The notes under the pieces were generated by a model. It did no database searches and was not told where the DNA came from. It worked only from the letters and a program-made list of their open reading frames with translations. Positions 26,984-58,836 of a stretch of DNA of 64,000 bases are shown piece by piece (within the stretch, counting starts at the first letter, position 1; the number at the start of each line of letters is the position of its first letter). The DNA is from Halorarum salinum (GTDB lineage Archaea > Halobacteriota > Halobacteria > Halobacteriales > Haloferacaceae), in the NCBI RefSeq assembly GCF_013402875.1, contig NZ_CP058579.1, forward strand, positions 62,001 through 126,000, read 5' to 3'. The position numbers were made by a program, and so were the translations under genes.

Positions 26984-27631
26984 CTATGAGTTGTCGGGCC
27001 CTGGTAGGTCAGTTGGGTCGTCCACGTCACGACGGACTCCCGGGTCATTGGTCTCAACGAGGGCAGCATCATCGGCCGTAAGCAGGATTTCGCGCCCCCC
27101 AACGTCACCGCCTACCTTGGTCAGCGCGTCGAAGTGCTGGGCGTCAAAAATGACGGGGTTTCCCCGTTCACCGTCGTAGGCAGCTGCGAGAGCGGAGCTC
27201 TCCCAGGTCTCGTATGCTGTAAGTAACGACGTTATCGATGACGATGAGACGAATGGCATGTCGCCGAGGGCGACGAGAACAGCATCAGATTCCCGTCTGG
27301 CAGCATAGCGCACGCCAGCTCGGACCGAGGAGCTTTGTCCTGACGTAAAGGCTTCGTTCTCCAGTATTTGGACGTCTAACTCACTGAGGGCGTCCCGGAC
27401 AGCATTCGCTTCGTGCCCGAGGACCACGCCAACTCCAGTGAGGTCGGTCTGCAGAAGTGTACCAACGACCCGATGAATGATCGGCTCTCCGTCGATCTGC
27501 TGGAGGAGTTTGTTTTCGTCGCCGAAGCGCACGCTCGTTCCTGCAGCGAGGACGATTCCGGAAACGCTGGCAGTGAATGTGCCGTCGGCGGTGACCGGTG
27601 GTGATCGAATTGGGAGTGCGCTTTCCGTCAT
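26984..27631 (-). CDS. mocA: Molybdenum cofactor nucleotidyltransferase (MocA family)
   Basis: 215 residues. The N-terminal signature VSGIVLAAGTSVRFGDENKLL is the nucleotide-binding loop LAAGxSxRFG..KLL, and ALGDMPFV the metal-binding aspartate segment; RGNPVIFDAQHFDAL and GDVGGREIL are further MocA/MobA-like landmarks. MocA adds CMP to molybdopterin for Mo hydroxylases of the xanthine oxidase family. Its start overlaps the moeA stop by 4 bases (ATGA type). It lies downstream of a Mo hydroxylase operon, which supports this role over other nucleotidyltransferases. The first 17 residues are not conserved. Confidence 0.85.
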   Translation of the reverse strand: MTESALPIRSPPVTADGTFTASVSGIVLAAGTSVRFGDENKLLQQIDGEPIIHRVVGTLLQTDLTGVGVVLGHEANAVRDALSELDVQILENEAFTSGQSSSVRAGVRYAARRESDAVLVALGDMPFVSSSSITSLLTAYETWESSALAAAYDGERGNPVIFDAQHFDALTKVGGDVGGREILLTADDAALVETNDPGVRRDVDDPTDLPGPDNS

Positions 27632-28869
27632 TCGACGACTGAATATGGTATGACGGCAACGGAGTCTCCCTCCGATATCTGTTCCCGTGTAAGGACGAAT
27701 CCGTCAGCACGTGATGCACGGGTACTAGACGAGACAACGCTTGGATCAAACATCTCAGTGTACACTGGAAGAGGGGAGTCATTGTGGCCCAGCGGCGCTG
27801 CCATTCCGTCAGTCAGTATCACTGGAATCGCGTACTCAAATCCCTCAGATCCGAGAGAGACATCTGTTGTCAGCGTCGCATCAATCGTCGGAAGCGTCGC
27901 ATCACCGGAAAAGAACGGGCGCATAATGAGCGATGCTATCGTATGGGCGCCAAGTGGTTTTCCGGGGATGGCGAACGCAACCGCATCGGGGAGCTGAGCT
28001 ACTGCTATAGGTTTGCCGGGGCGGATACGAACCCGATGGAACTGTACTTCGCCAATCTCCTCTAACGCGCGGATCACATAGTCCTTATGTCCAACGCTCG
28101 TTCCGCCTGTCGTAACTACGACGTCGTAGTCTGAAGCCAGTTCTTCGATCCGATTTCGGACCTGCCCGTATTCATCTGGAACCGTCCCCGCGAACGTCGC
28201 TTCGTGTCCCCAAGACCGGATGAGTCCGGCAAGCATAGCCGAGTCAAGATCATTCGTCCTGTTCTCGTGAATCTCCGTCCCCGTTGCGAGAATCCCTGCT
28301 GAAAACCGTTCTACGACTTGAATGTGATCCATACCGAGATCGCCAAGGAGGATAGAGTCTTTTGGCGAGAGACGCTCGCTGGCGTCAAATAATTGCTCTC
28401 CTGCAGCGACATTGCTTCCTTGTTCGTAGACGTACGTTCCACGCTCGATATTAGTGCCGGTGAGTTGGCCGTCGGTGACGACTGCCTCCTCACGTTTTAG
28501 GACTGCATCCGCTCGTTCAGGAAGCGGTGCACCGGTCGCGATCCGCACTGCTTCACCGGCCGCGATTCTCGGCGGCGAGCTCTCCGGGAACACCTCTTCT
28601 CCAACAACTCGAAGCGGATACTCATCGGCGGCATCGAACGCGTATCCATCCATCGTTGCACGATCATGGGAAGGATAGTCCTGCATAGCGATAATAGAGC
28701 CGACGAGTGTCCGATCAGAGACTGAACTCACGGGAACTTCCTCAGTTGGCCGATTAGCAATCGCGTTCCGGCGGATCCTGAGGACTTCGTCGATGGCCTC
28801 CTCTCTGCCAGTTAGGGTTCCATGGCCGTGGGTCACATCCGTGGTTTCCCTCTGTATGCTCAAAAACAT
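27628..28869 (-). CDS. moeA: Molybdopterin molybdenumtransferase (MoeA family)
   Basis: 413 residues from the ATG at 28869; a GTG two codons earlier is also in frame. Family landmarks: ATMDGYAFDAADE near residue 72-84, RIATGAPLPERADAVLKRE, ILATGTEI, the nucleotide-binding VVVTTGGTSVGHKDYV near 238-253, and IPGKPLGAHTI. MoeA inserts molybdate into adenylated molybdopterin. It precedes mocA with a 4-base overlap. It is separated from the Mo hydroxylase genes by about 430 bases and has its own 16-base inverted repeat CCACGACGTCACGTGG near 28892-28907, so it may have a separate promoter. Confidence 0.92.
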   Translation of the reverse strand: MFLSIQRETTDVTHGHGTLTGREEAIDEVLRIRRNAIANRPTEEVPVSSVSDRTLVGSIIAMQDYPSHDRATMDGYAFDAADEYPLRVVGEEVFPESSPPRIAAGEAVRIATGAPLPERADAVLKREEAVVTDGQLTGTNIERGTYVYEQGSNVAAGEQLFDASERLSPKDSILLGDLGMDHIQVVERFSAGILATGTEIHENRTNDLDSAMLAGLIRSWGHEATFAGTVPDEYGQVRNRIEELASDYDVVVTTGGTSVGHKDYVIRALEEIGEVQFHRVRIRPGKPIAVAQLPDAVAFAIPGKPLGAHTIASLIMRPFFSGDATLPTIDATLTTDVSLGSEGFEYAIPVILTDGMAAPLGHNDSPLPVYTEMFDPSVVSSSTRASRADGFVLTREQISEGDSVAVIPYSVVE

Positions 28870-29295
28870 TCCCACAGGAATGACGGTTCGTCCACGACGT
28901 CACGTGGTAAATATCACACGAACAGCTCGTTGCAGAATTCATGTATGTACCTGATCTATATCAGTTTATATGTGGGCGAGAGGTTTGCAGAACACCACCT
29001 CATCGCCGGAGAATTACGACGTTTTCAGTCAATACTGTCGCACCTATTCGAAAGTACCGACGTCACGAACGCGAGATGTGAGTTCGTTCAAGTAGGAACC
29101 TCCGTGTAGATTGTTCGACCCTGGCTGTTCGCTCGGATCGTGTCTTTGTTGATCCGATGGATTACATGGCCATAGAGGCAGTCTCGTCGCCGGCTGCACT
29201 GGTTCAACTGTCTTCCGCAACCGTTTGAGAACATCGCCACTTTGTGCTGACGAATCAATACTAGCACGCGGTGGCAGAAGGTCAGCGGTAGCAGC
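28870..29295. other. Gap between moeA and the Mo hydroxylase operon
   Basis: About 426 bases with no convincing gene. Near its moeA end lies the palindrome CCACGACGTCACGTGG (about 28892-28907), 23-38 bases ahead of the moeA ATG and downstream of a TATA-like TGATATTTA on the minus strand. The rest shows nothing I can name. Confidence 0.4.
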
Positions 29296-29790
29296 TCAGT
29301 CTATGTCGAGATTTTCCGCGGCAGTGTCGATCGCATCGAAGATGGACTCGTATCCCGTACATCGACACAGATTTTCGGACATGTAGTGTTGGAGTGTCTC
29401 ATCGTCCGGATCACCGACTTCGTCGAGCATCGCTTTAGACATCATGATCATTCCCGGCGTGCAGTACCCACATTGGAATCCTTCCTCCTCCTCGAATGCC
29501 TCTTGAACCGGATCGAGTTCGTTCTTATCACCAAGTCCCTCAATAGTCTCGATGGCTAAACCGTCAGCGTTGACAGCTAGTTCCAAACAGGAGTTAACGG
29601 GTTTCCCATCTAGATAAACAGTACAGCACCCACAGACACCGACCCCACATCCCTCGGTCGTTCCGGTTAGGTTAAATTCCTCCCGTAGTAACTCGACGAG
29701 CGTCGTACTTGGATCGATCGTCCGCGTGAGTTCCTTGTCATTCACCGTCACCTGTACCTCCACGCGGTCTCTAACTGCAGTTTGGCTCAT
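29296..29790 (-). CDS. Mo hydroxylase small [2Fe-2S] subunit
   Basis: 164 residues. The first half is a plant-type ferredoxin domain with GCGVGVCGCCTVYLDGKPVN (about 46-65), and the second an all-helical [2-Fe-2S]-binding domain with CGYCTPGMIM and ENLCRCTGYESI. The cysteine spacing matches the CoxS/XdhA small-subunit family, which passes electrons from the Mo site to FAD. Its start overlaps the stop of the Mo subunit by 4 bases. Last structural gene of the four-gene operon. Confidence 0.95.
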   Translation of the reverse strand: MSQTAVRDRVEVQVTVNDKELTRTIDPSTTLVELLREEFNLTGTTEGCGVGVCGCCTVYLDGKPVNSCLELAVNADGLAIETIEGLGDKNELDPVQEAFEEEEGFQCGYCTPGMIMMSKAMLDEVGDPDDETLQHYMSENLCRCTGYESIFDAIDTAAENLDID

Positions 29791-32141
29791 TCTAGGTCAC
29801 CTCCTTCGATTTCCCGAAGTACACGCTCGGGCGTGAACGGAATTCGCTCTAACCGGGCATCTGTCGCATTGACGATGGCATTAGAGATTGCAGGTGTCAC
29901 TGCAAACGAACCGGTCTCCCCAACGCCTTTTGCGCCGAACGGCCCCTCGGCATGTTCTACTTCGACGATAATATTGTTCACTTTGTCAGGCATATCACGG
30001 AACGACGGAACCTTGTAGTCGAGTAACTGTCGATTGGTTTGCTGCCCGAACTCGAACACCATTTCTTCGTGAAGTGTCTGTCCAAGAGCGTGTGCCGCAC
30101 CGCCCTGAATCTGGCCTTTCACACGTTCAGGATCGATGGCTTGCCCGACGTCGGCCGCATTATGAAGTTCCTTGACGTTAACCTTCCCCGTTTCGACGTC
30201 GACATCCACGACCGCACCGGTTGCTCCGAAGAACCAGAATACGGTTGGCTTGTCGCTTTGCCCCGTTTCAGGATCGTGGTGGCCCCCTTCGGTGGTGTAG
30301 TATCCACGGCCAACGAGAGTACCGCCAGCATCGCCGAACTCGGCCCTGACGGTTTCACTCAGCGAGAGGCGCTTGCCCGTACTGGGATTAATTACCTCAC
30401 CATCTTCAATGAGGACATCGGACGGCGAGACGTTCCATTCGCGAGCGGCAATATCCCGCAACTGGCCCCGGATGTCCTCGATAGAGTTGATGAGGGCGTT
30501 GCCCATGTGAAACGTGCTTCGACTCCCAGCCGTGATCGTGTCGAACGGGGATGTCGCTGTATCAGGATCTTCAACTGATACTCGATCGATGCTGATCCCA
30601 AGTTCCTCAGCGACGATTTGAGCGAGTGTCGTCCGGACGCCCTGGCCGATCTCAACGCTACTCGAGTGGACTGTAACTGACCCATCACCACTCATCACGG
30701 TGAGTGCCCCCGACGAGGACGGCGTGATGCAAGCCTTGTAACCGATCGCGATTCCCTTCCCGCGTACGAGGTGGGGTTCGCCAGGTTGTTCCAGCGGTTC
30801 ATCCCAATCTATCGCCTCGACGACTTCATCGAGGCACTGAAGGAGCCCAACAGACTCGACCGTCGATCCTGTCGGATGGGTCGATCCTTCGGTGTAGCCG
30901 TGGCGGCGGCGGTATTCAACTGGGTCGACGCCGAGTGCATTTGCGATGTCGTCCATCTGCGCCTCGTAGGCCGAGACGAGCTGTGGCACACCAAACCCTC
31001 TGAACGCGCCAGCAGGCGGCTTGTTCGTGTACACGCAATGGGAATCGATACTCACATTCGGGATTTCGTACGGCCCCGCCGCAGTATATCCTGACTTCTT
31101 GGTAATACGTGGGCCGATCTCCGCGTACGCCCCTGTGTCGTAGTAGACGTCACATTCACGCCCGATGATGGTGCCGTTCTCATCGACTCCCGTTTTGAGC
31201 GTCACCTTCGTCTCGTGACGGATATTCGTGTCGAACGACTCTTCGATATCTTGCCGGAGTTTGATTGTGTGGCCGGTCAGATAGGCACACAGCGCGACGA
31301 GAGGCTCTGTTTTCGTGTACAGTTTCGCTCCGTAAGACCCCCCCACTTGTGGCACTTCCACGCGAATCTTCGACTCGGGGACGTCAAACATTTTTGCCAG
31401 TTCATTGCGGACAAAGTGGGGACTTTGGTTCGGCGTCCACAACTTCAACTTGCCACTAGGGTCGGCCCGTCCGATCGTCACGAACGGTTCGAAGGGCATG
31501 TGCTGGACGGGGGGCGTGCGGTAGGTGTTCTCGAATACTCGGTCCGCCTCCTCTAGAGCAGTGTTGGTATCGCCGTGCCGGAGATTGAACTCGAAGGCTT
31601 CGTTCGTGTTCCGTCCACCTTCAACCTGATCAAGGTCGGGGAACGTATCTGCAGACTCGAACTCTTCATGAAGGATCGGTGCATCATCGTCGAGTGCTTC
31701 ATCAACTGTCGAGCAAAAGTCAATCTCATTGTACTCGACGGTGATAAGGTCGACCGCCTCTTCAGCGGTCTTGGCATCGCGTGCAATGACCGCTGCTACT
31801 GGATCACCAATGAAGTGGACTTTCTCCAGTGCTAGTACCGGTTGATCTTTGATTGCAGGCCCGAAGTACGGGGTGAAGTTCTCTCGTTCCTGTAATTGAA
31901 ATATATCTTCCCGGGTGACAACGCGTTCGACCCCGTCAAGCGCCTCTGCATCACTCTTATCAATGTCAGTGATATACCCATGCGGGACGGTTGCCCGGTG
32001 GATTTGCATATGCCAGACGTCCTCGAAATCGAGATCATCGGCGTATTCCACAGTTCCGCGGATTTTCTCGACGGCGTCCAGCCGCGACACGTGCTTCGAA
32101 ACTGTCTCGAGTTCGGCTCGTTTCTCTTGTTGTAGCGACAT
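29787..32141 (-). CDS. Mo hydroxylase large, molybdopterin-binding subunit (xanthine dehydrogenase/aldehyde oxidase type)
   Basis: 784 residues, typical for the free-standing Mo subunit. Landmarks: YADDLDFEDVWHMQIHRATV at the N-terminus, NQSPHFVRNELAKMF, VPQVGGSYGAKL, the active-site loop PPAGAFRGFGVPQ near residue 355-366, SSSVEIGQGVRTTLAQI, and the C-terminal GPFGAKGVGETG with the catalytic Glu. The loop has AFRGFG, as in aldehyde/xanthine/aromatic hydroxylases, and lacks the CSFR cysteine of aerobic CO dehydrogenase. The enzyme hydroxylates a C-H or oxidises an aldehyde with water. Substrate unknown; no extra FeS domain of the 4-hydroxybenzoyl-CoA reductase type is present. Confidence 0.94.
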   Translation of the reverse strand: MSLQQEKRAELETVSKHVSRLDAVEKIRGTVEYADDLDFEDVWHMQIHRATVPHGYITDIDKSDAEALDGVERVVTREDIFQLQERENFTPYFGPAIKDQPVLALEKVHFIGDPVAAVIARDAKTAEEAVDLITVEYNEIDFCSTVDEALDDDAPILHEEFESADTFPDLDQVEGGRNTNEAFEFNLRHGDTNTALEEADRVFENTYRTPPVQHMPFEPFVTIGRADPSGKLKLWTPNQSPHFVRNELAKMFDVPESKIRVEVPQVGGSYGAKLYTKTEPLVALCAYLTGHTIKLRQDIEESFDTNIRHETKVTLKTGVDENGTIIGRECDVYYDTGAYAEIGPRITKKSGYTAAGPYEIPNVSIDSHCVYTNKPPAGAFRGFGVPQLVSAYEAQMDDIANALGVDPVEYRRRHGYTEGSTHPTGSTVESVGLLQCLDEVVEAIDWDEPLEQPGEPHLVRGKGIAIGYKACITPSSSGALTVMSGDGSVTVHSSSVEIGQGVRTTLAQIVAEELGISIDRVSVEDPDTATSPFDTITAGSRSTFHMGNALINSIEDIRGQLRDIAAREWNVSPSDVLIEDGEVINPSTGKRLSLSETVRAEFGDAGGTLVGRGYYTTEGGHHDPETGQSDKPTVFWFFGATGAVVDVDVETGKVNVKELHNAADVGQAIDPERVKGQIQGGAAHALGQTLHEEMVFEFGQQTNRQLLDYKVPSFRDMPDKVNNIIVEVEHAEGPFGAKGVGETGSFAVTPAISNAIVNATDARLERIPFTPERVLREIEGGDLE

Positions 32142-32998
32142 TAGTGCGCCTCTTGGAGCTGTTGGAGAGCGCGCTCGGTGAACACTCCCGCCATTCGTTC
32201 CTTGTACTCCGCTGATCCACGCAGATCATCCGAGGGGGAGACCTGCCTGCGGGCATCCTCCGCGACCTGACCTATCCGGTCATCAGACAGAGACCCGTTT
32301 AGCGTCTTATTGACGTTATCCAACCGGAAAATCGGCTTGTGGCTCACAGAATTCAATAAGACACGAACATTGGTCACGTCGTCTCCATTGGCCACCGCGA
32401 ATGCAGCGACTCCGACGCATGGCCAGTCAACCTCAGAGAAGTACCGATGCTTGACGTACGTTCCTCGGGTGTTGGAATCTGGCTTTGAAATGACGATCTC
32501 CTTGATCAGTTCCGCGTCAGCCAAATCCGTCTCGTAATATCCCTGCATGAACTCCTCAATGGGAACCTGACGTTCTTCCTCTCCGTCGGTAATGATGACG
32601 TCTGCGTCGTACCCGGCGAGCACCGGCGGCAAATCCAGGTGCACGTCAGCGTGAGCGAGATGGCCACCGAGAGTAGCCGAGTTCCGAACTCGGACGCCTG
32701 CGATTTCTTGTAGACATTCCACGACGACTGGCAGGTGTTCCGAGACGATACGCGACTGCTCAACGTCGCGAAGTGGCGTCAGTGCCCCAATACGAATCGA
32801 CTTGTCATTCTCAGTGACGTAGGAGTGGTTTTCGGCGAGTCCTCGTATATTGATGAGGAGATCTGGAGCGAACACTCCCTCTTTCATCACTACCGTTATG
32901 GCGGTTCCGCCGGCAATGACTTGGCTCCCAGGATTTTCCGCCAGCATCCGGCATGCTTCCCCGACCGTGTCCGGGAAGGCCATATCAAAGGACTTCAT
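32141..32998 (-). CDS. Mo hydroxylase FAD-binding subunit
   Basis: 285 residues. FAD pyrophosphate loop VIAGGTAITVVMKEGVFAP (about 22-40) and the isoalloxazine-side motif VRNSATLGGHLAHADVHLD (about 101-120), the CoxM/XdhB pattern. It takes electrons from the [2Fe-2S] subunit and passes them to an unknown acceptor. It shares one base with the Mo subunit start and overlaps the CoxG-like gene by 4 bases, so the order coxG-like, FAD, Mo, FeS is one transcript. Confidence 0.93.
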   Translation of the reverse strand: MKSFDMAFPDTVGEACRMLAENPGSQVIAGGTAITVVMKEGVFAPDLLINIRGLAENHSYVTENDKSIRIGALTPLRDVEQSRIVSEHLPVVVECLQEIAGVRVRNSATLGGHLAHADVHLDLPPVLAGYDADVIITDGEEERQVPIEEFMQGYYETDLADAELIKEIVISKPDSNTRGTYVKHRYFSEVDWPCVGVAAFAVANGDDVTNVRVLLNSVSHKPIFRLDNVNKTLNGSLSDDRIGQVAEDARRQVSPSDDLRGSAEYKERMAGVFTERALQQLQEAH

Positions 32999-33465
32999 TC
33001 TGTAGTTACTTTCGCCCCCTCTAGCTCCTCCTTCACGTTAGCAAGGAACTCATCGGTCAGTTTATCACATTGATGCTTGAACGCACTCTCACCTAAGGAC
33101 CCGAGACGACCGCGAATGGCAAACTCGATCGTGATTTCACCTTCCGTCGTATGATCTTCTCCCTCCGCCATCTCTAGATCACCATCGACAGTTGCGGACC
33201 CAGGCATCCGTCCGGCCGGGCTAGCCTCCGCTTCGACGGCGGCGAAATTTGACGGGTCTTTGTCTGTGATCTCAATATGCGCATCGAACGTGAGGCTCGT
33301 GTACGCGACTTCAACACCGATTTTGGCGTCGAAGATATCTTCCTCGAGTTCTTCGACTGATTCACACCCCGGGACGCAGGGCGCCATCTTGTCCGGTGTC
33401 ATGAAAAAATCCCATGTCTCTGCTACTGGAACTCCGATATTAAATTCTCTGGTTACTTCTGGCAT
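32995..33465 (-). CDS. CoxG-like SRPBCC protein
   Basis: 156 residues from the ATG at 33465 (MPEVTREFNIGVPVAETWDFF); two earlier in-frame starts (33486 and 33519) would add residues not seen in the family, and a TATA-like ACTATAAAC sits about 35 bases upstream. The START/SRPBCC fold of CoxG is shown by VPVAETWDFFMTPDKMAPCVPGCESVEEL and AAVEAEASPAGRMPGSATV. CoxG proteins help recruit or mature Mo hydroxylases at the membrane. First gene of the Mo hydroxylase operon. Confidence 0.88.
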   Translation of the reverse strand: MPEVTREFNIGVPVAETWDFFMTPDKMAPCVPGCESVEELEEDIFDAKIGVEVAYTSLTFDAHIEITDKDPSNFAAVEAEASPAGRMPGSATVDGDLEMAEGEDHTTEGEITIEFAIRGRLGSLGESAFKHQCDKLTDEFLANVKEELEGAKVTTE

Positions 33466-34260
33466 GCTACCGTTGTACTGGACCATTACGTCGGGGGGTT
33501 TATAGTTTTTGCAAGCCAATCGTCATTTGAGGCGAGTCGGAAGCTACCATAAAGCAATCTTCCTCCAAATAGTGAGGGAGAGAACGTGGTTCTCGTACCA
33601 GTACCGCCATTCTGCCGACAGCGGTGAAGATCAGCGTTGATCAGAGGATTTGATTCAATTGTACGACAACCAAGGGATCGGCATAGGTGATACCGTCGTT
33701 CTATTAGGCGGAATATTATATACTCCGGTACCGAATGCGTCTGAATACTCTGGCAGCAAATTAAAGTATAAACACGCCAGACGGGCAGCCGGCCGGTTAA
33801 CTCAGCTCACAACAGCATAGAGAGCAGATTTCGAACCATGATTATCGCAAAGTCGGTTTGTTCAGCTCTCTACTCTTAGAAGGGATCACGATTGCTCTTG
33901 ATCGCTCGCAATCGGACTAAGGGGGAAGCTCAGGGATTGGATTGGACCGTCATAGGAATCTCTGCGTCACTGTCCTTGCTTCCCCTGGGGAGGCAAGCAT
34001 AACAATATTAGTGCTGTTATCTACTGCGAGTATAGGACGTGTTACCCTTGCTGAAGTTCTACTTTGCGGAATATTATATATCCCACGTTGGATATTTCTC
34101 CCTCTGCTGGTATACCTTCCATGATCGCATCCATATCACCCGGACAGACCATTGCCAGTAATACTTCCAGCTACAGCGCATTTCATGCTGATCATTGCTA
34201 TTTCAATCAAAACGTTGTTTAGTTGTCAATTGGGGAGGAAGAGATGTTTTTGGGGTGAGG
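33466..34260. other. Intergenic region with a repeated 15-mer
   Basis: About 795 bases between two minus-strand genes. The 15-mer GCGGAATATTATATA occurs twice, near 33708-33722 and 34066-34080, each within a short hydrophobic reading (LLGGILYTP and LLCGILYIP), hinting at relics of a duplicated membrane peptide or shared promoter elements. No intact gene seen. Confidence 0.4.
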
Positions 34261-37483: not shown

Positions 37484-38053
37484 GTGACAGAGCGTATTAT
37501 CGTCGCCTTGACCGGTGCAACGGGCCAGCTGTACGGAGTGCGAGCGCTCGAGCTCCTCGTAGAGACGGACCAAGAGACACACCTCATTTATTCGAACGCG
37601 GCGGGGCTGACGCTCCGCCAGGAGACCGAGTACGAGCTATCTGACCTCGAAGACCTCGCCAATGAGACCCATAGCGTCAAGAACATTGGTGCGCGGACTG
37701 CCAGCGGGTCCTTCCGCACTGCGGGAATGCTCGTCGTACCCTGCTCGATGAAGACACTCTCCAACATTGCCCACGGAAACTCGGGGAACCTCATCACCCG
37801 GTCCGCTGACGTCGTCCTCAAGGAGCGGCGACCGCTGGTATTGATGCCCCGTGAGAAGCCATTCAACCGCATCCATCTCGAGAACATGCTTACGGTGACA
37901 GACGCCGGCGGCATCATCTGTCCTCCGTTCCCGTCGTTCTATCAGGGGATCACGGATATGGACGAGATGATCACCCGGACGGTCGCACGCGCCCTCTCGC
38001 TGATGGACGTCGAGATCTCGTTCGATGAGTGGGAAGGGCTCGAAGACTGGTAA
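37484..38053 (+). CDS. ubiX: UbiX family flavin prenyltransferase
   Basis: 189 residues with a GTG start at 37484; a TATA-like GTTAATA is about 29 bases upstream. UbiX/Pad1 landmarks: IIVALTGATGQLYGVRALELL at the N-terminus, ASGSFRTAGMLVVPCSMKTLSNIAHG, LKERRPLVLMPREKPFNRIHLENM, and GIICPPFPSFYQG. UbiX joins a dimethylallyl group to FMN to make prenylated FMN, the cofactor of UbiD decarboxylases; two UbiD-type genes lie at 48.0 and 56.0 kb. An aldo/keto reductase gene follows about 100 bases downstream in the same direction. Confidence 0.94.
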   Translation: MTERIIVALTGATGQLYGVRALELLVETDQETHLIYSNAAGLTLRQETEYELSDLEDLANETHSVKNIGARTASGSFRTAGMLVVPCSMKTLSNIAHGNSGNLITRSADVVLKERRPLVLMPREKPFNRIHLENMLTVTDAGGIICPPFPSFYQGITDMDEMITRTVARALSLMDVEISFDEWEGLEDW

Positions 38054-40549: not shown

Positions 40550-41479
40550 TCAATCGAACTGTGCCGGGTGGAGGAAGCTCGATCCGGCCGCGGCCGCCGC
40601 TTCGGCGTCAGTCCGCTCGTCGCCCACGAAGACACTGTTGCCAGGGTCCGCATCGAGGCGGTCGAGGCAGTGCTCCAGTGGTTCGGGATGCGGTTTCTCT
40701 TCCGAAACGGTACCCCGGCCGACGATGGCGTCCATATCGCCACGGGTGCCGTGGGATTCCAAGGCCTGTTCGGCCACGGACGGCGCGTTCGCGGTACAGA
40801 TACCGACCGAGCAGCCGATCGTCGACAGCACCGTGACGAGTGGGAGACGCGATCCTGTCCGGGCCCCCTCTGACTCGTATTCCGTGAGCAGCCGATCAAG
40901 TTCATCGTAGTGTCCGTTCTTTCGCGCGATCCGCAGGACGTCCGCTCGTGAGTACTCCGTCAGCGAGCGTTCAAGGATGTCGTCTAACAACTCCTTGATG
41001 TCATCGCGCGCAGCCCCCCAGTCGACGTCGAGGTCAACGAGCGTGCCGTCGAGGTCGAAAACCACCGCGTCGAAACCGTCTAGCTCGGACGCATCGGTGG
41101 GACCCGCGTCGGGGTGCCAGATGTCGTCTGGCGGGGAAACGGGGACCTCGTCGCCGTTATCGAATCCGAACAGTGCCCGCAGTCGGACAGGCGCAACGAG
41201 TTCGACTTTGCCGTCGGGATAATTGTCCATCAGCGGTCGGATCACAGCGCTCCGAACGCCGGAGACCGAACACGCCCGCAGCACGACCCCGTCGCAGTGC
41301 TCCGTTACAAGCGCACCCGACATCGCGGTCTTCGACGGGAGTTCGTCAAGAAGCGGCAGGCTATCTACGTTGAGCGTTCCCGAATACGGCCGGAATCCGA
41401 GTTCAGCGGCCAATTCATCGGCTGTTTCCCTGACGAAGTACGCCCCTTCGCCGGCGCCAGTCATGACAGATGGACACAT
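40550..41479 (-). CDS. Fusion: archaeal riboflavin-kinase-like (RibK/DUF120) domain with HAD phosphatase
   Basis: 309 residues. Residues 7-115 look like the CTP-dependent archaeal riboflavin kinase: GAGEGAYFV (8-16), LGFRPYSGTLNV (27-38) with the PxxGTLNV motif, and VELVAPVRLRALF then GDEVPV (92-114). Residues about 134-309 are a HAD hydrolase: VVFDLDGTLVD (D142, D144), a cap of about 55 helical residues, GICTANAPS, EEKPHPEPL with the Lys, and VFVGDERTDAEAAAAAG. All four HAD motifs are intact. Start: ATG at 41479, with ATG at 41464 as alternative. RibK normally makes FMN from riboflavin with CTP. The pairing with a phosphatase, near ubiX and ubiD, is unusual. The RibK call rests on motifs only. 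Confidence 0.75.
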   Translation of the reverse strand: MCPSVMTGAGEGAYFVRETADELAAELGFRPYSGTLNVDSLPLLDELPSKTAMSGALVTEHCDGVVLRACSVSGVRSAVIRPLMDNYPDGKVELVAPVRLRALFGFDNGDEVPVSPPDDIWHPDAGPTDASELDGFDAVVFDLDGTLVDLDVDWGAARDDIKELLDDILERSLTEYSRADVLRIARKNGHYDELDRLLTEYESEGARTGSRLPLVTVLSTIGCSVGICTANAPSVAEQALESHGTRGDMDAIVGRGTVSEEKPHPEPLEHCLDRLDADPGNSVFVGDERTDAEAAAAAGSSFLHPAQFD

Positions 41480-41712: not shown

Positions 41713-42900
41713 TGCATAGACAGCAGCCAAATTCGCGGATACATAGACGCTCTACTGGGACCCGGCGCGACGAGGATACTTGTGTCGCGCATAGCAATCG
41801 CCGTTTTCCTCGCCAGTGACTTGATGATGTTGCACACGCGGCTGCTCTCCCTGCTACTGCCCGCGATCGCATATAGGTACACGGGTCCGACTCCTCGGTG
41901 GGACTCGTCATGACGGCGCTCACTCTGTCGTCGATCGTCTTCATCTCGGTGATGGGAGTGCTGGTCAACCGTTTTTCTCGGCGGCACGCCCTAGCCGGGT
42001 CGCTCGTAATCGCCGCGCTCTCAGGCGTCGTGACCTCACTGGCGCTGACCTTCGAGGAACTACTATCGCCCCGCGTCGTTCAGGGACTCGGGTACAACGG
42101 CGTCATGCCGATGACGGTCACGCTCCTTGGTGATCTATTATGGAACCCGTGAGACAACGGCGCAGGGCATTCGCGCCCCCGCGAACAACGCCGGGCCACG
42201 GCGTTCCCTGTCATCGGTGGCGCACCTTCTTGTCTCGTGGAGCGCGCCCTTCCTGCTATACGTCCTCTGTTTCTCCACGGCGGCGGTCGCATACGTCACT
42301 GTGCCGACCGCGAAGTCCAGCAAGGAGCGACTGCTAGTGGAAGAGTACCTCGCTCACGTGCTGAGCGTCGCGGCCCGGCCGCGGATGCTCACCCTCGCCT
42401 TGGTCGGGTTCACGACGGTTTTCGTCCAGTACACCTTCCTCACGCACGCGTCGCTGATTCTGACGCCCAGTTCACCTTCACACCTGCGACGGTGGGCATC
42501 TACATCGGACTGGCAACGGCGGCGAGTACGCTCGGGGTGAGCTAAGTAGGTCGCATCACCAATGCCGTTACCCGGATGGGACGTTTCTGGTCTCCCTGCT
42601 CGTCGCGGGCGCCGCGATGGTACTTATCCCCGTGATCGGATCGGCAGTCCTCGTCGTTGTCACCCTCTTCGGGTTCTTCCGCGGGATCCTCGGGCCGACC
42701 CAGCACAACGTCCTCAACCAGACCATCGACACGTCCGTCCGCGCTTGGATCAACTCGGTCAGCTATACAGTGATGACAGCAGCGAAGACTACAGCGCCGA
42801 TCGCAGTCAGCGTGATTGCCGCAGCTAACTCCTACGCGGTCGGGATCCTGCTGCTGGGCGTATCTCCGTGTTCTCTACGGTGACCTTGCTGTGGGTACGC
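41713..42900 (+). pseudogene. MFS transporter, frameshifted
   Basis: Membrane-protein pieces in successive frames: DLMMLHTRLLSLLLPAIAY, then from 41895 LVMTALTLSSIVFISVMGVL, NRFSRRHALAGSLVIAAL and RVVQGLGYNGVMPMTVTLLGD. A break near 42140 leads to LVSWSAPFLLYVLCFSTAAV and TLALVGFTTVFVQYTFLTHA, another break near 42470 to FTFTPATVGIYIGLATAAST, and one near 42600 to VLVVVTLFGFFRGILGPTQH and further helices, ending about 42880. The order matches a twelve-helix MFS carrier with at least three frameshifts. It may be the relic that the MFS gene at 39.2 kb replaces. Confidence 0.75.
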
Positions 42901-48029: not shown

Positions 48030-49670
48030 TTACTTGAAGTCCTCTTCAGAGAAGACAGGCGTATTGGGTTCGATCTCGTCGGTCAATACCTGGCGGTTCT
48101 TGAGTTCCTCTCCGGTCTCGAAGTAGCGGCCCTCGACTGCGCGCTCAGCTTCCTCAACGAGTTGGTCGTTCCATTCACCAAGCGAGTACCCGTACCAAGG
48201 CATCTCAGGGTCGAGTTCTGGAAGTCCCAGCTCTTCCCAGATCTCGCGGGCATTCTCCATGTACTCCTTCTTCGGGAGTGAGATCGGGGGCATCTTCCGC
48301 TTGAGGGTGGCGTCCCAGAGGATAGCCGAGTCGCCGCTTTCGTCCTCGCCTTCGTGACGGGGAGCGTGACCGACCGACCGTCCTTCGATGATCTCGGTGT
48401 CTTCGTGAGGCTTCGAACGGTAGCCCATGGCCCAGAACACGGCGTCGAGATTGTCCGGATCGATGTCCTCGTCGACCGCGACGACGAACTTCCCGTGGGA
48501 CGCACGGAAGGAGGCGACGGCTGTGAGTGTCCGCCAGACGGCAGAGCGCTTGGTTCCCTGCTCAACTTGGACGATGATGAGCTTCCGGAGGTTCGTCAGC
48601 GGTTCGTGTAGTGTCACAGATGTAACGCAGTTGAGTTTGCAATCCTCCGTCAGGTGCTTGTAAAACAACGGTTCGAGGGCGACTTTCTTGATCACGCTGC
48701 TCTCGCTGGGCGTGACCTGACTGATGATCGACGTCATGACGGGGTTGCTGCGCTTCGTGATCCCCGTCACGTCGAACACCATGTTGTACTCCTTGTTATT
48801 AATGAACCCGTGTGACTCACCGAACGGGGCCTCGGGTTCGAGGACATCCGTCCTTATCTCGCCCTCGATGACGATATCGGCGTCCGCTGGCACCATGACG
48901 GGAACGGTCTGACCCTCTACCTCTTGTATCGGGTCGCCGACGAGACCACCCGAGACTGCGAGTTCGTCGACACCAAATGCTAGCGACTGGGCGGATGTGT
49001 AGGCGACAGCAGGCGGCGCGCTGACAACAAGCGCCGCCGGCAACGGTTCACCTCGGTCCTTAGCGACTTTCCAGTGTTCGTAGATGCCCTTCCCCCACTC
49101 GATGGAGGGGTTCATCCCCGTCCGCTTGCGACCCTTCACCTGGGCGCGATAGATCCCGACGTTCCGGTTCCCCGTTTCAGGATGGTGGGTGACGAACGCG
49201 GACATTGTGGTGTAGGGGGCGTTATCGAACCCAGGCGTCGAAATCGGAATGGGGATTCCCTCGAGCGCGTTTCCGTCCTCGTCCAGATCAGAACCGGTGT
49301 GAACGACATCGTGTACCGGTGCCTCTGAACTACTGACTTCTGTCGGCTCAATCGGGTTGTCAAGGGCGTTGTCCCACTTCTGGTTTACTTCCGACGGGTC
49401 GACACCGAGACCCGTCCCGTAGATCTCAGGATTCCCGGCTAATGCTCCGACTGTCACCGGCGTGTCGAATGCACGCCCATTCGAATCGGTGACGTTCGTG
49501 AAGAGGAACGCCTTCCGGTCTACTTCGGGGAGGCCGCCGCGGAACTGCCACCGAACGAGCGGGTGAAGCTCCGTGTCCTTGTTTATCTCACGGTCAACCG
49601 TTACGAGGAGGTCCCTTTCGCGCAATTCCTCAAGGTGGTCCCTCATGTCGGGATAGTTCGGATAAGCCAT
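48030..49670 (-). CDS. ubiD: UbiD family decarboxylase (first of two)
   Basis: 546 residues. UbiD landmarks: DMRDHLEELRERDLLVTVDREI at the N-terminus, GNRNVGIYRAQVKGRKRTGM (prenyl-FMN/metal binding), IVIEGEIRTDVLEPEAPFGE with the catalytic Arg and Glu, MTSIISQVTPSESSVIKK, KLIIVQVEQGT and FVVAVDEDIDPDNLDAVFWAMGYR. It reversibly decarboxylates an unsaturated or aromatic acid with prenylated FMN supplied by UbiX. A TATA-like TATTTAAACC on the minus strand is centred about 26 bases before the ATG. It is divergent from the ABC binding-protein gene (about 220 bases apart). Confidence 0.93.
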   Translation of the reverse strand: MAYPNYPDMRDHLEELRERDLLVTVDREINKDTELHPLVRWQFRGGLPEVDRKAFLFTNVTDSNGRAFDTPVTVGALAGNPEIYGTGLGVDPSEVNQKWDNALDNPIEPTEVSSSEAPVHDVVHTGSDLDEDGNALEGIPIPISTPGFDNAPYTTMSAFVTHHPETGNRNVGIYRAQVKGRKRTGMNPSIEWGKGIYEHWKVAKDRGEPLPAALVVSAPPAVAYTSAQSLAFGVDELAVSGGLVGDPIQEVEGQTVPVMVPADADIVIEGEIRTDVLEPEAPFGESHGFINNKEYNMVFDVTGITKRSNPVMTSIISQVTPSESSVIKKVALEPLFYKHLTEDCKLNCVTSVTLHEPLTNLRKLIIVQVEQGTKRSAVWRTLTAVASFRASHGKFVVAVDEDIDPDNLDAVFWAMGYRSKPHEDTEIIEGRSVGHAPRHEGEDESGDSAILWDATLKRKMPPISLPKKEYMENAREIWEELGLPELDPEMPWYGYSLGEWNDQLVEEAERAVEGRYFETGEELKNRQVLTDEIEPNTPVFSEEDFK

Positions 49671-55604: not shown

Positions 55605-55991
55605 TCACTGCGGTCGCGAGGCCTCGATGACGTAGCCGTCCGGATCTCGGAGCATGCAGAGGTAGCGGTCCCAGTCTGTCATCCGAGGTTCCGTGAGGGC
55701 CTCGCCCGCATCATGGTCGCTCGCGCGCTCGTGGACCGCGTCGATGTCGTCAACGGCCACGACTACGATGATGCCACGACCCCGGTCGTCGCCCGGCGAC
55801 TCCATGCCGAACGCCTCGAGCGCCGCCTCGTCGTGATCGCGCTCGATCTTGAGCGTGCATTCGCCGGTGTCGAAGGCGATGCTGTTTTCACTCTCATCTG
55901 CGGCCTCAAGACCCAGAACCTTTGTGTAAAACTCCCGGGACCGCTTGAGGTCAGTCGTCATCAAGTACGTCTGGTGGAGGCGCGGTGCCAT
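55605..55991 (-). CDS. VOC family (glyoxalase/bleomycin-resistance fold) protein
   Basis: 128 residues from the ATG at 55991; a longer start at 56051 would overlap the UbiD gene. One vicinal-oxygen-chelate domain: PRLHQTYLMTTDLKRSREFYTKVLGLEA, AFDTGECTLKIERDHDEAA, IIVVVAVDDIDAVHERA, DRYLCMLRDPDGYVIEA. Metal ligands are likely His in LHQTYL, and Glu in KIE and YVIEA. Such proteins are dioxygenases, isomerases or lyases. Lies between the second ubiD and the asparaginase-like gene, all on the minus strand with short gaps. Confidence 0.88.
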   Translation of the reverse strand: MAPRLHQTYLMTTDLKRSREFYTKVLGLEAADESENSIAFDTGECTLKIERDHDEAALEAFGMESPGDDRGRGIIVVVAVDDIDAVHERASDHDAGEALTEPRMTDWDRYLCMLRDPDGYVIEASRPQ

Positions 55992-56029: not shown

Positions 56030-57448
56030 TCAGATCTCGTCGAGGTTCCACTCCTCAAGTACGCGTTCACGTAGTTCATCGTCAGCGCGGTTGACTGTCG
56101 GGAACAAGTCCCGTTCCTCGTAGGGGCGGCAGGCATTCATCACCATGCGAGAGCTCTTGGCTTCGCCCTCGTCGGACACCGGGTCTAACGGGCTAGTGTA
56201 CAGGTCCCGGATCACGTCGATCTCCTCGACATTACACCGGGTACACAACGCCCAGAGGACATCTTCGGTGTCCGTGACATTGACATCATCGTCAACTACG
56301 ATCGTGTACCGGCCGCCGTAGACGCCGTTGGGAACCGTAGCGGCCGCCGTTGCGACCTGTTTGGCATGACCGGGATACTGCTGTTCGATCGAGATCGTAA
56401 GGAACTGCGGGCGCTCGAACACATGAGACCAGACACCGGTGATCCCGCTGATACCGGCGTTCTCGAGTTGATTCCAGACACCGCCAGCGGTCCGGATTGG
56501 GACTTCGTAGTAGCCCCCTGGGGGCTTGAGCGGCGGGATGCCTAGCAGGATTGGGTCATCCCGATGGGTAATCGTCTCGATCTCGAGGACTGGCTGATTT
56601 TCGGACGCAGGCGTCGCATAGCCAGGCCACTCGCCGAAGGGGCCGTCAGAGCAGTTGCGCTCCGAGAGCGGCGGGACTGTCCCCTCCAAAACAATCTCGG
56701 CGGTCGCCGGGACTGGGAGGCCTGTGTACTCGCTCTCAACGACCGGGACCGGTTCACCCCGCATCCACCCCGCGAGTTCGTACTCGCTTTCTTGGCGCCC
56801 AGCGGTCATCGAGGAGGCGAACCAGGTATGGGGATCTTCGCCCAGTACTATCGCTACCGGACACGGCTTACCCCGCTCGTGGTACTTCTCCATGGTGATC
56901 CGGCCGTCCTTGCCGGGGAGGAACAGAACGGAGACGCTCTCATCATCGAGGATGACGCTACGATATACGCCGAGGTTGACCCAGCCAGTGTCGGGGTCCT
57001 CCGTGATCACGGTGCAGCCGGTCCCGATGTACCGGCCGCCGTCATGTGCATGCCACCTCGGCGCTGGAATAGCCGTCACGTCGACGTCTGCACCCATGTG
57101 AACGTTCTCCCGAATCGGCGCTCCGTCTGCGCCGACTTCGGTCGGCGAGACGCCCTCGTAGTCGTTGCTCTCGGTGCGCCACGTATCGATCACTTCCAGC
57201 GGCCCTAGCGAGGGTTCCATGTTCAGCCCTAGCTTCGTCCGCGCGATTGTTCCGAACGGATTGGTTAGCACGCGAAAGCCCGACGAATAGTCGACGATAT
57301 CGTCGAACAGCAGCGCCGGACCGTCCTCGCGCTCGGCCACGACTTCGGTGACTGCGCCAAGTTCAAGGTTCCAGTCAACCCCGTCCAGTCGGGCGAGTTC
57401 ACCCTCGTCATCGACCATCTCGACAAACTCACGGAGATCGGAAAGCAT
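56030..57448 (-). CDS. ubiD: UbiD family decarboxylase (second)
   Basis: 472 residues from the ATG at 57448 (MLSDLREFVEMVDDEGELARL); an upstream start (57496) adds an unconserved tail. Landmarks: WVNLGVYRSVILDDESVSVL, EIVLEGTVPPLSERNCSDGPFGEWPGY with the catalytic Glu/Arg cluster, VLEIETITHRDDPILLGIPP, ILENAGI-type GVWNQLENAGISGITGVW, and TIVVDDDVNVTDTEDVLWALC. It is distinct in length and sequence from the 48 kb UbiD, so the two probably act on different acids. The gene is followed by the VOC gene after 39 bases. UbiX at 37.5 kb could serve both. Confidence 0.93.
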   Translation of the reverse strand: MLSDLREFVEMVDDEGELARLDGVDWNLELGAVTEVVAEREDGPALLFDDIVDYSSGFRVLTNPFGTIARTKLGLNMEPSLGPLEVIDTWRTESNDYEGVSPTEVGADGAPIRENVHMGADVDVTAIPAPRWHAHDGGRYIGTGCTVITEDPDTGWVNLGVYRSVILDDESVSVLFLPGKDGRITMEKYHERGKPCPVAIVLGEDPHTWFASSMTAGRQESEYELAGWMRGEPVPVVESEYTGLPVPATAEIVLEGTVPPLSERNCSDGPFGEWPGYATPASENQPVLEIETITHRDDPILLGIPPLKPPGGYYEVPIRTAGGVWNQLENAGISGITGVWSHVFERPQFLTISIEQQYPGHAKQVATAAATVPNGVYGGRYTIVVDDDVNVTDTEDVLWALCTRCNVEEIDVIRDLYTSPLDPVSDEGEAKSSRMVMNACRPYEERDLFPTVNRADDELRERVLEEWNLDEI

Positions 57449-57675: not shown

Positions 57676-58836
57676 ATGGACACTCCCGACGAATCTGACC
57701 CATGGAGTATCTCCAAGCCGGCCCTCTATAGAGAACTACAACGCTCTCAACAGAACGATGAAACAATTGTGCTCGCAACAATCGTTAATGTCGAGGGGTC
57801 CGCTTATCGTCGGCCGGGAGCAAAGATGCTTATTTCCGCTGATAACGAAAGTCTGGGTGCAGTCACAGCGGGTTGCCTCGAGGAGCCAGTAGTGGACTTG
57901 GCATCAACAGTCCGAGAGGAAGAGCGTCCTCAGGTAGAGACGTTTGACCTTATGGACGACGAATGGGGACTGGGCCTCGGGTGTAACGGTATCATTGACA
58001 TTCTGTTGGAACCGGTCGATGCTTCGATCGAACCAGTTCTTGCAGCACTACATGACCGCAGACCAGTCACGGTGGTTACTGCGGTCCGTTCAGACAACCC
58101 CGCGGTTTCGATCGGAGCCCGGACAGTTATCTCCACAAACGGTGATGTTTCGAACTCACATGACCGCAGTCAGCTCCCGAAGAGCGTGGTTGACGCGGTG
58201 AAGACAACCGCCGAAACGATTCAGAACAGCGGCAAGGCTACTATATGTGACATCTCGACCTCGGGTGGGGACGTTCAAGTGTTCATTGATAGTATCGAGC
58301 CATCCCCTCGACTACTTCTGTTTGGGAACCAAAATGACGTTCATCCTGTGTCACGATTCGGGCGACAGGTTGGTTTCGAGGTTATTGTCGCCTCTGCTCG
58401 CGGGTCCCGTTCGTCGAGTAGCGACTTTCCGTGTGCTCACGAAGTATATGCGACTCATCCGACGGACATTCACGAGTTAACCGATGAACGGACCTACGTC
58501 GTGTTGATGTCGCATAACCTCCTCGATGATCAGCTTGCCCTCGAATCCCTTCAGTTTGCACCCGACGTCCCCTACATTGGGCTTATGGGACCGCAAGAAC
58601 GGTTCGAGCAGATATGCGATAAATTGGCTAAGGATGGAACAGCATTTACAGCGGATCAATTAGAGCGAGTGTCGACACCGGTAGGACTTGATCTTGGAGG
58701 TGGTGAACCTATGCAGATCGCCCTAAGTATCGTAAGTGAAGTGCTTGCGATTCACAATGAACGAACTGGAGGCCGTTTAAAAGATAAGAAAGGCCCAATA
58801 CACGATAGAGTTTCCATTGGTACAGACGGATCATGA
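57676..58836 (+). CDS. xdhC: XdhC/CoxI family Mo-hydroxylase maturation protein
   Basis: 386 residues. N-terminal XdhC domain: VLATIVNVEGSAYRRPGAKM and GAVTAGCLEEPVVDLAS (the family's GxxxGGC-type motif with Cys). Then LGLGCNGIIDILLEPV, and a C-terminal Rossmann part with LLLFGNQNDVHPVSRFGRQVGFEVIVAS and YIGLMGPQERFEQICDKL. XdhC/CoxI proteins bind the molybdenum cofactor, deliver the sulfurated form and insert it into xanthine dehydrogenase-type enzymes. It is unlinked to the Mo hydroxylase genes (24 kb away), but is the only candidate for that job here. Stands alone; the next gene on this strand is rdfA after about 260 bases. Confidence 0.9.
   Translation: MDTPDESDPWSISKPALYRELQRSQQNDETIVLATIVNVEGSAYRRPGAKMLISADNESLGAVTAGCLEEPVVDLASTVREEERPQVETFDLMDDEWGLGLGCNGIIDILLEPVDASIEPVLAALHDRRPVTVVTAVRSDNPAVSIGARTVISTNGDVSNSHDRSQLPKSVVDAVKTTAETIQNSGKATICDISTSGGDVQVFIDSIEPSPRLLLFGNQNDVHPVSRFGRQVGFEVIVASARGSRSSSSDFPCAHEVYATHPTDIHELTDERTYVVLMSHNLLDDQLALESLQFAPDVPYIGLMGPQERFEQICDKLAKDGTAFTADQLERVSTPVGLDLGGGEPMQIALSIVSEVLAIHNERTGGRLKDKKGPIHDRVSIGTDGS

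Follow-up and report, generated by a model that had tools for sequence, protein, structure and literature searches.

A riboflavin kinase-like/HAD phosphatase fusion protein of haloarchaea accompanies UbiX and may serve prFMN biosynthesis

Within the 64,000-nucleotide stretch of the Halorarum salinum genome analysed here (hereafter the window), the gene at 40550..41479 on the minus strand raises a specific question: what might a protein that joins a riboflavin kinase-like domain to a HAD phosphatase do in the neighbourhood of the flavin prenyltransferase gene ubiX and of ubiD genes? UbiD enzymes need prFMN, and the first-pass annotation of this sequence had proposed that the fusion supplies cofactor to them, by providing FMN for UbiX, by making the dimethylallyl monophosphate (DMAP) used as prenyl donor, or by dephosphorylating a flavin precursor.

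The open frame, its Pfam domains and the existence of orthologues define a product of 309 amino acids, counted from the ATG. Residues 5–114 (41138..41467, minus strand) match the CTP-dep_RFKase family (PF01982) at 62.5 bits against a cut-off of 25 (4.6e-17), the profile search finding the RibK similarity that had been read in this part of the protein; the motifs quoted for it (GEGAYF, PYSGTLNV and VELVAPVRLR) are present, although the RibK signature is kept only in part. Likewise, residues 137–302 (40574..41071, minus strand) match HAD_2/Hydrolase (PF13419/PF00702) at 70–72 bits (1e-19) and carry, as had been claimed, all catalytic motifs of a HAD phosphatase: DxDxT (D142, D144), T229, K262 and GDxxxD (D287, D291). 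No Pfam family beyond RFK and HAD was matched in the protein. All eight fusion proteins scanned match PF01982 (E <=0.01) and seven of them match HAD; in the pair from genomes G119 and G309, dN/dS is about 0.22 and 0.28 for the two domains, indicating purifying selection on both. The orthologues and the dN/dS values rule out a sequencing or frame artefact, and the fusion is confirmed as real rather than a chance frame. In the AlphaFold model, residues 141–290 of the HAD half mostly exceed a pLDDT of 90, and a Foldseek search with it returned phosphoglycolate-phosphatase-like HADs as best matches (2hdo at 3e-10); the equivalog models listed gave this half no named substrate, all of them scoring far below cut-off (the best, TIGR01449, at 73.6 against 180). 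The N-terminal domain received low confidence in two structure predictions (pLDDT 52 in one of them); these models were left unused, and our conclusions about this domain are drawn from its sequence.

Relatives of the fusion were sought in a sample of 391 haloarchaeal genomes. Four of them (G119, G309, G327 and G125) contain full-length relatives (41–48% identity; 37–47% across the two domains in other haloarchaea), and searching the family of G119 added a further copy from G397, a genome outside the sample, at the same coordinates as a fusion on a Natrinema gelatinilyticum plasmid. A collection of named genomes yielded the fusion in Natrarchaeobius chitinivorans AArcht7, which matches G309, and in the marine MAG JAKURE01, with an alignment as query; a single-protein query gave none there. 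Searches with PF01982 recovered two more fusions. That of G245 has an intact kinase-like domain (3.4e-15) but has lost most of the HAD core together with its catalytic residues, and that of G268 is frameshifted, with a degenerate HAD; both are decaying copies and both adjoin ubiX. In total, seven of the 391 genomes carry the fusion (two of the copies decayed), and no relatives were found on viral contigs. Extra PF01982 copies in G026, G143, G181 and other genomes were considered as fusions and rejected, those read being ordinary-type paralogues with the RT motif. Second RibK paralogues of this divergent but ordinary type (108–131 bits) occur in G026, G143, G181, G235, G238, G270, G271, G313 and G371.

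The most consistent feature of the fusion's surroundings is UbiX. The ubiX gene of the window (37484..38053, plus strand; TIGR00421, 7.6e-63, 211 bits against a cut-off of 109) lies 2.5 kb from the fusion, close to the 3 kb first noted, and encodes the only UbiX of its subfamily in this genome. UbiX proteins of this subfamily (at least 63% identity) are present in 11 of the 391 genomes, and all seven fusion carriers of the sample fall among those 11; the naive hypergeometric P for this co-occurrence is 1.3e-12, a value that ignores shared ancestry, and the carriers span four families. The same subfamily is also found in G397 and in the marine MAG. In all eight haloarchaeal loci, G397 included, fusion and ubiX are separated by between 1 bp and 16 kb: in G327 the fusion begins 1 bp past the ubiX stop, and in G119 and G309 the genes run in the order ubiD-ubiX-receptor-fusion on one strand. 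Four genomes (G070, G153, G160 and G373) have a window-type UbiX without the fusion, which is thus not essential. On the UbiX tree, several branches of which are weak, fusion carriers are present on either side of the deeper splits; this spread suits an old association of fusion and UbiX with repeated loss, horizontal transfer being the alternative. The homologues are therefore tied to ubiX rather than scattered, and this link is stronger than the window sequence alone could show.

The UbiD partners follow a different pattern. The two ubiD genes that had been noted within 17 kb lie 6.6 and 14.6 kb from the fusion and encode UbiD-family decarboxylases A (48030..49670, minus strand; PF01977, 2.2e-47) and B (56030..57448, minus strand; PF01977, 1e-62; TIGR00148, 278 bits, above cut-off). 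Across the fusion loci the UbiD proteins form groups that share no more than about 40% identity, except for a pair from G000 and G125 at 57%, while the UbiX proteins at these loci keep 62–74% identity to that of the window. Because the UbiD partners are diverse and UbiX stays similar, the fusion appears to follow UbiX, the cofactor enzyme, and an attachment to one particular UbiD substrate is ruled out by partners that differ between loci. The same diversity weighs against the idea that the fusion activates a UbiD substrate, as the kinase and HAD phosphatase do in phenylphosphate carboxylation. UbiD B does resemble the beta subunit of phenylphosphate carboxylase (271 bits, short of the 469 cut-off), but UbiD types vary widely between loci and no UbiD was seen near the ribB-linked copies described below, so that we consider substrate activation highly improbable.

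None of the other window genes tested (AKR, MFS, Usp, MBL, ALDH, XdhC and ThDP enzyme) is constant across the fusion loci, and a tie to any of them was rejected. Just past the start of the fusion, 41898-42883 (plus strand) holds fragments of another MFS-like transporter. The regions 26984-33486 and 57676-58836 encode a CoxLMS-type molybdenum hydroxylase with CoxG, MoeA-like, MobA-like and XdhC proteins, of which XdhC is the only one named by profile search; a related CoxL is present in G125, in G397 and at one marine ribB-fusion locus. A small protein at 55605..55961 (minus strand), detected by tblastn and assigned to the VOC (glyoxalase-like) fold by reading its sequence, has relatives by tblastn that adjoin UbiX in six other genomes (43–57% identity) and others near the marine ribB-fusion loci (30–39%); the loci are the window itself, L039, L225-L229, L281, L313 and L314. 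It may be a candidate for another prFMN accessory.

The motifs that the N-terminal domain has kept bear on whether it still acts as a riboflavin kinase. In the RibK family, the Thr and Asn of GTLN hold Mg and the nucleotide. We aligned eight fusion domains with 44 ordinary haloarchaeal RibKs, TA1064 and eight divergent paralogues. GTLN, the Glu before APxxLR (Glu93 in the window protein) and LxR are kept in all eight fusions, and GTLN and the Glu also in a marine ribB-linked copy. In contrast, PxRTx[HY] and RTFG, each present in more than 95% of the aligned ordinary RibKs, are missing: all eight fusions have P-x-[VMA]-[PD] in place of the former and [HNY]C.G in place of the latter. An RT-type motif is present in 27 of 27 RibKs read from classes outside the haloarchaea. 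The fusions have invariant residues of their own, namely C62 and G64 (CxG), C70 and Y87-P88 (YP), and the kinase domains of 14 fusions group in one clade (100/100 support) to which no ordinary archaeal RibK belongs. By these sequence criteria they form a distinct subfamily. The NCBIfam RibK models likewise score the fusion below cut-off (NF040694, 38.4 bits against 168; NF010762, 46 against 279). Compared with the archaeal CTP-dependent RibK/RbkR proteins (MJ0056 and TA1064), the fusion thus belongs to the same Pfam family across the whole domain and has GTLN, Glu and LxR in common with them, but it lacks the N-terminal HTH, PxRT, RTFG and the LxGYxxQF segment, and it differs in its own invariants, its separate clade and its attached HAD. 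Because the Arg and Thr of PxRTxH and the RTFG motif are lost, riboflavin may not be the acceptor.

Such changes could also be expected of a protein that has stopped being an enzyme and that carries or matures prFMN or FMN on a riboflavin kinase fold. Proteins of comparable function exist: LpdD and PhdC are encoded by auxiliary genes associated with UbiX/UbiD and act on prFMN (PMC10865409, PMC13040415), more such accessory proteins are expected, and the altered acceptor-site motifs and invariant C62 and C70 of the fusion would suit the same role. Their folds are unrelated to the fusion, whose Pfam matches are RFK and HAD only. However, the core phosphotransfer motifs are kept, as is the HAD active site in nearly all copies, which suggests catalysis, and a non-catalytic carrier seems to us quite unlikely.

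A second, independent flavin link of the fusion comes from its marine paralogues. In a marine haloarchaeal MAG and two relatives (G416, G685 and G686; three of three genomes), a fusion paralogue lies 2–10 bp downstream of ribB, the DHBP synthase gene, on the same strand. Another fusion paralogue, in these three genomes and in G687, adjoins panB, a position that in other haloarchaea holds a single-domain HAD. This single-domain protein occurs in nearly all haloarchaea, has intact motifs and is the nearest relative of the fusion's HAD half (~33–43% identity), from which it differs in having no kinase-like domain attached; examples beside panB are at L048, L049, L053, L057, L075, L081 and L119. 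Since the marine paralogue sits at panB where others have the single-domain HAD, and since no single-domain copy was found in the marine MAG at the threshold used, the HAD half probably descended from the panB-linked HAD. Neither UbiX nor UbiD was found in the examined parts of the marine fusion contigs, and in the ALOHA MAG UbiX is on a contig other than that of the fusion. The genes ribB and ubiX share flavin metabolism, which makes flavin the common thread of these contexts, with panB outside it.

One plain account of this thread is that the fusion merely raises FMN for UbiX, being still a riboflavin kinase with an FMN or ArPP phosphatase attached, and would thus correspond in archaea to the FMN hydrolase/riboflavin kinase of plants. 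Membership in PF01982, the kept GTLN and Glu and the ribB operon of the marine clade accord with it, and for haloarchaea a gap is recorded at the step of the ArPP phosphatase (EC 3.1.3.104; PMC8305020). The plant protein AtFHy/RFK, for which both activities are known, likewise combines a HAD phosphatase and a riboflavin kinase (PMC2972280). The plant protein has the HAD first and a eukaryotic-type RFK, whereas the fusion has the reverse order and an RFK of the archaeal family, so that the likeness is at best convergent. Moreover, the motifs of ordinary RibK have given way to others in every fusion copy examined, and an ordinary RibK is always present: in all 391 genomes of the sample, in the window genome (an HTH-RibK of 147 bits, encoded elsewhere beside a ribB identified by eye from the sequence) and in the marine MAG that carries the ribB-linked fusion. 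FMN provision for UbiX, one of the roles first suggested, is therefore possible in principle, but as plain extra supply we think it unlikely. The other suggested role in flavin metabolism, action on a flavin precursor, gains support from the ribB-linked paralogue.

A tie to UbiX could also reflect supply of its prenyl donor: the HAD would convert DMAPP to DMAP, or the kinase domain would obtain DMAP by phosphorylating prenol. The tight link between fusion and UbiX would fit such a role, and some UbiX enzymes accept DMAP only (PMC6541611). PaUbiX, which uses DMAP, has Phe181, where DMAPP-using UbiX enzymes have Gln or His, although the donor is not decided by this residue alone (PMC6541611). 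The equivalent position is Arg in the window UbiX and Arg, Asn, Thr or Tyr in others of its subfamily, so that the Phe gate of DMAP-type enzymes, with the same caveat, is missing here. In addition, G245 and G268 keep UbiX though their HAD is deleted or degenerate, and the ribB link is left unexplained. The missing Phe gate and the UbiX-adjacent G245 copy without a HAD core lower the likelihood that the HAD supplies DMAP and weaken the corresponding suggestion of the first-pass annotation; donor supply in either form is, in our view, improbable.

Genome context strongly supports flavin cofactor supply around UbiX as the functional setting, in line with the general role first proposed. Within that setting we favour, tentatively and at somewhat less than an even chance, the reading that the fusion assists prFMN biosynthesis as an accessory flavin-phosphate kinase/phosphatase with an altered acceptor. 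The observations behind it are the two domains, the motifs kept and lost, the grouping of the fusions in a single clade and the position of their genes near ubiX and ribB; from them we infer substrate, catalysis and exact step as follows. The N-terminal domain would descend from an archaeal CTP-dependent riboflavin kinase and, given that it keeps GTLN, the invariant Glu and LxR, probably still binds or transfers phosphate together with a nucleotide and Mg. Its acceptor pocket appears altered, such that the domain may accept some flavin or flavin-like compound instead of free riboflavin or in addition to it. The HAD domain would dephosphorylate a small compound related to flavin, which would be FMN or else ArPP, a riboflavin precursor, and the protein, made beside UbiX, would adjust the flavin pool that UbiX prenylates. 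Retention of the kinase-like domain in G245 despite deletion of the HAD core is consistent with this accessory role; the ordinary RibK already present in every sampled genome and the second marine paralogue beside panB, which is not a flavin gene, speak against it. A bolder proposal, possible but rather unlikely, sees in the fusion the founding member of a novel class of archaeal prFMN-pathway enzymes, in which a neofunctionalised riboflavin kinase phosphorylates or carries (prenyl)flavin for UbiX and the HAD half, like that of the ribB-linked copies, provides a phosphatase reaction on a flavin, for instance that of the ArPP phosphatase missing from archaea.

In the open-access literature searched we found no description of this fusion, which does not prove that there is none. 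Some UbiD enzymes are not activated in recombinant hosts by UbiX alone, and further helper proteins are expected (PMC10865409). The fusion, which accompanies UbiX in several haloarchaeal families and recurs in a ribB operon, is a concrete candidate for such a prFMN helper, and its HAD half is a candidate for the phosphatase step missing from the haloarchaeal riboflavin pathway (PMC8305020).
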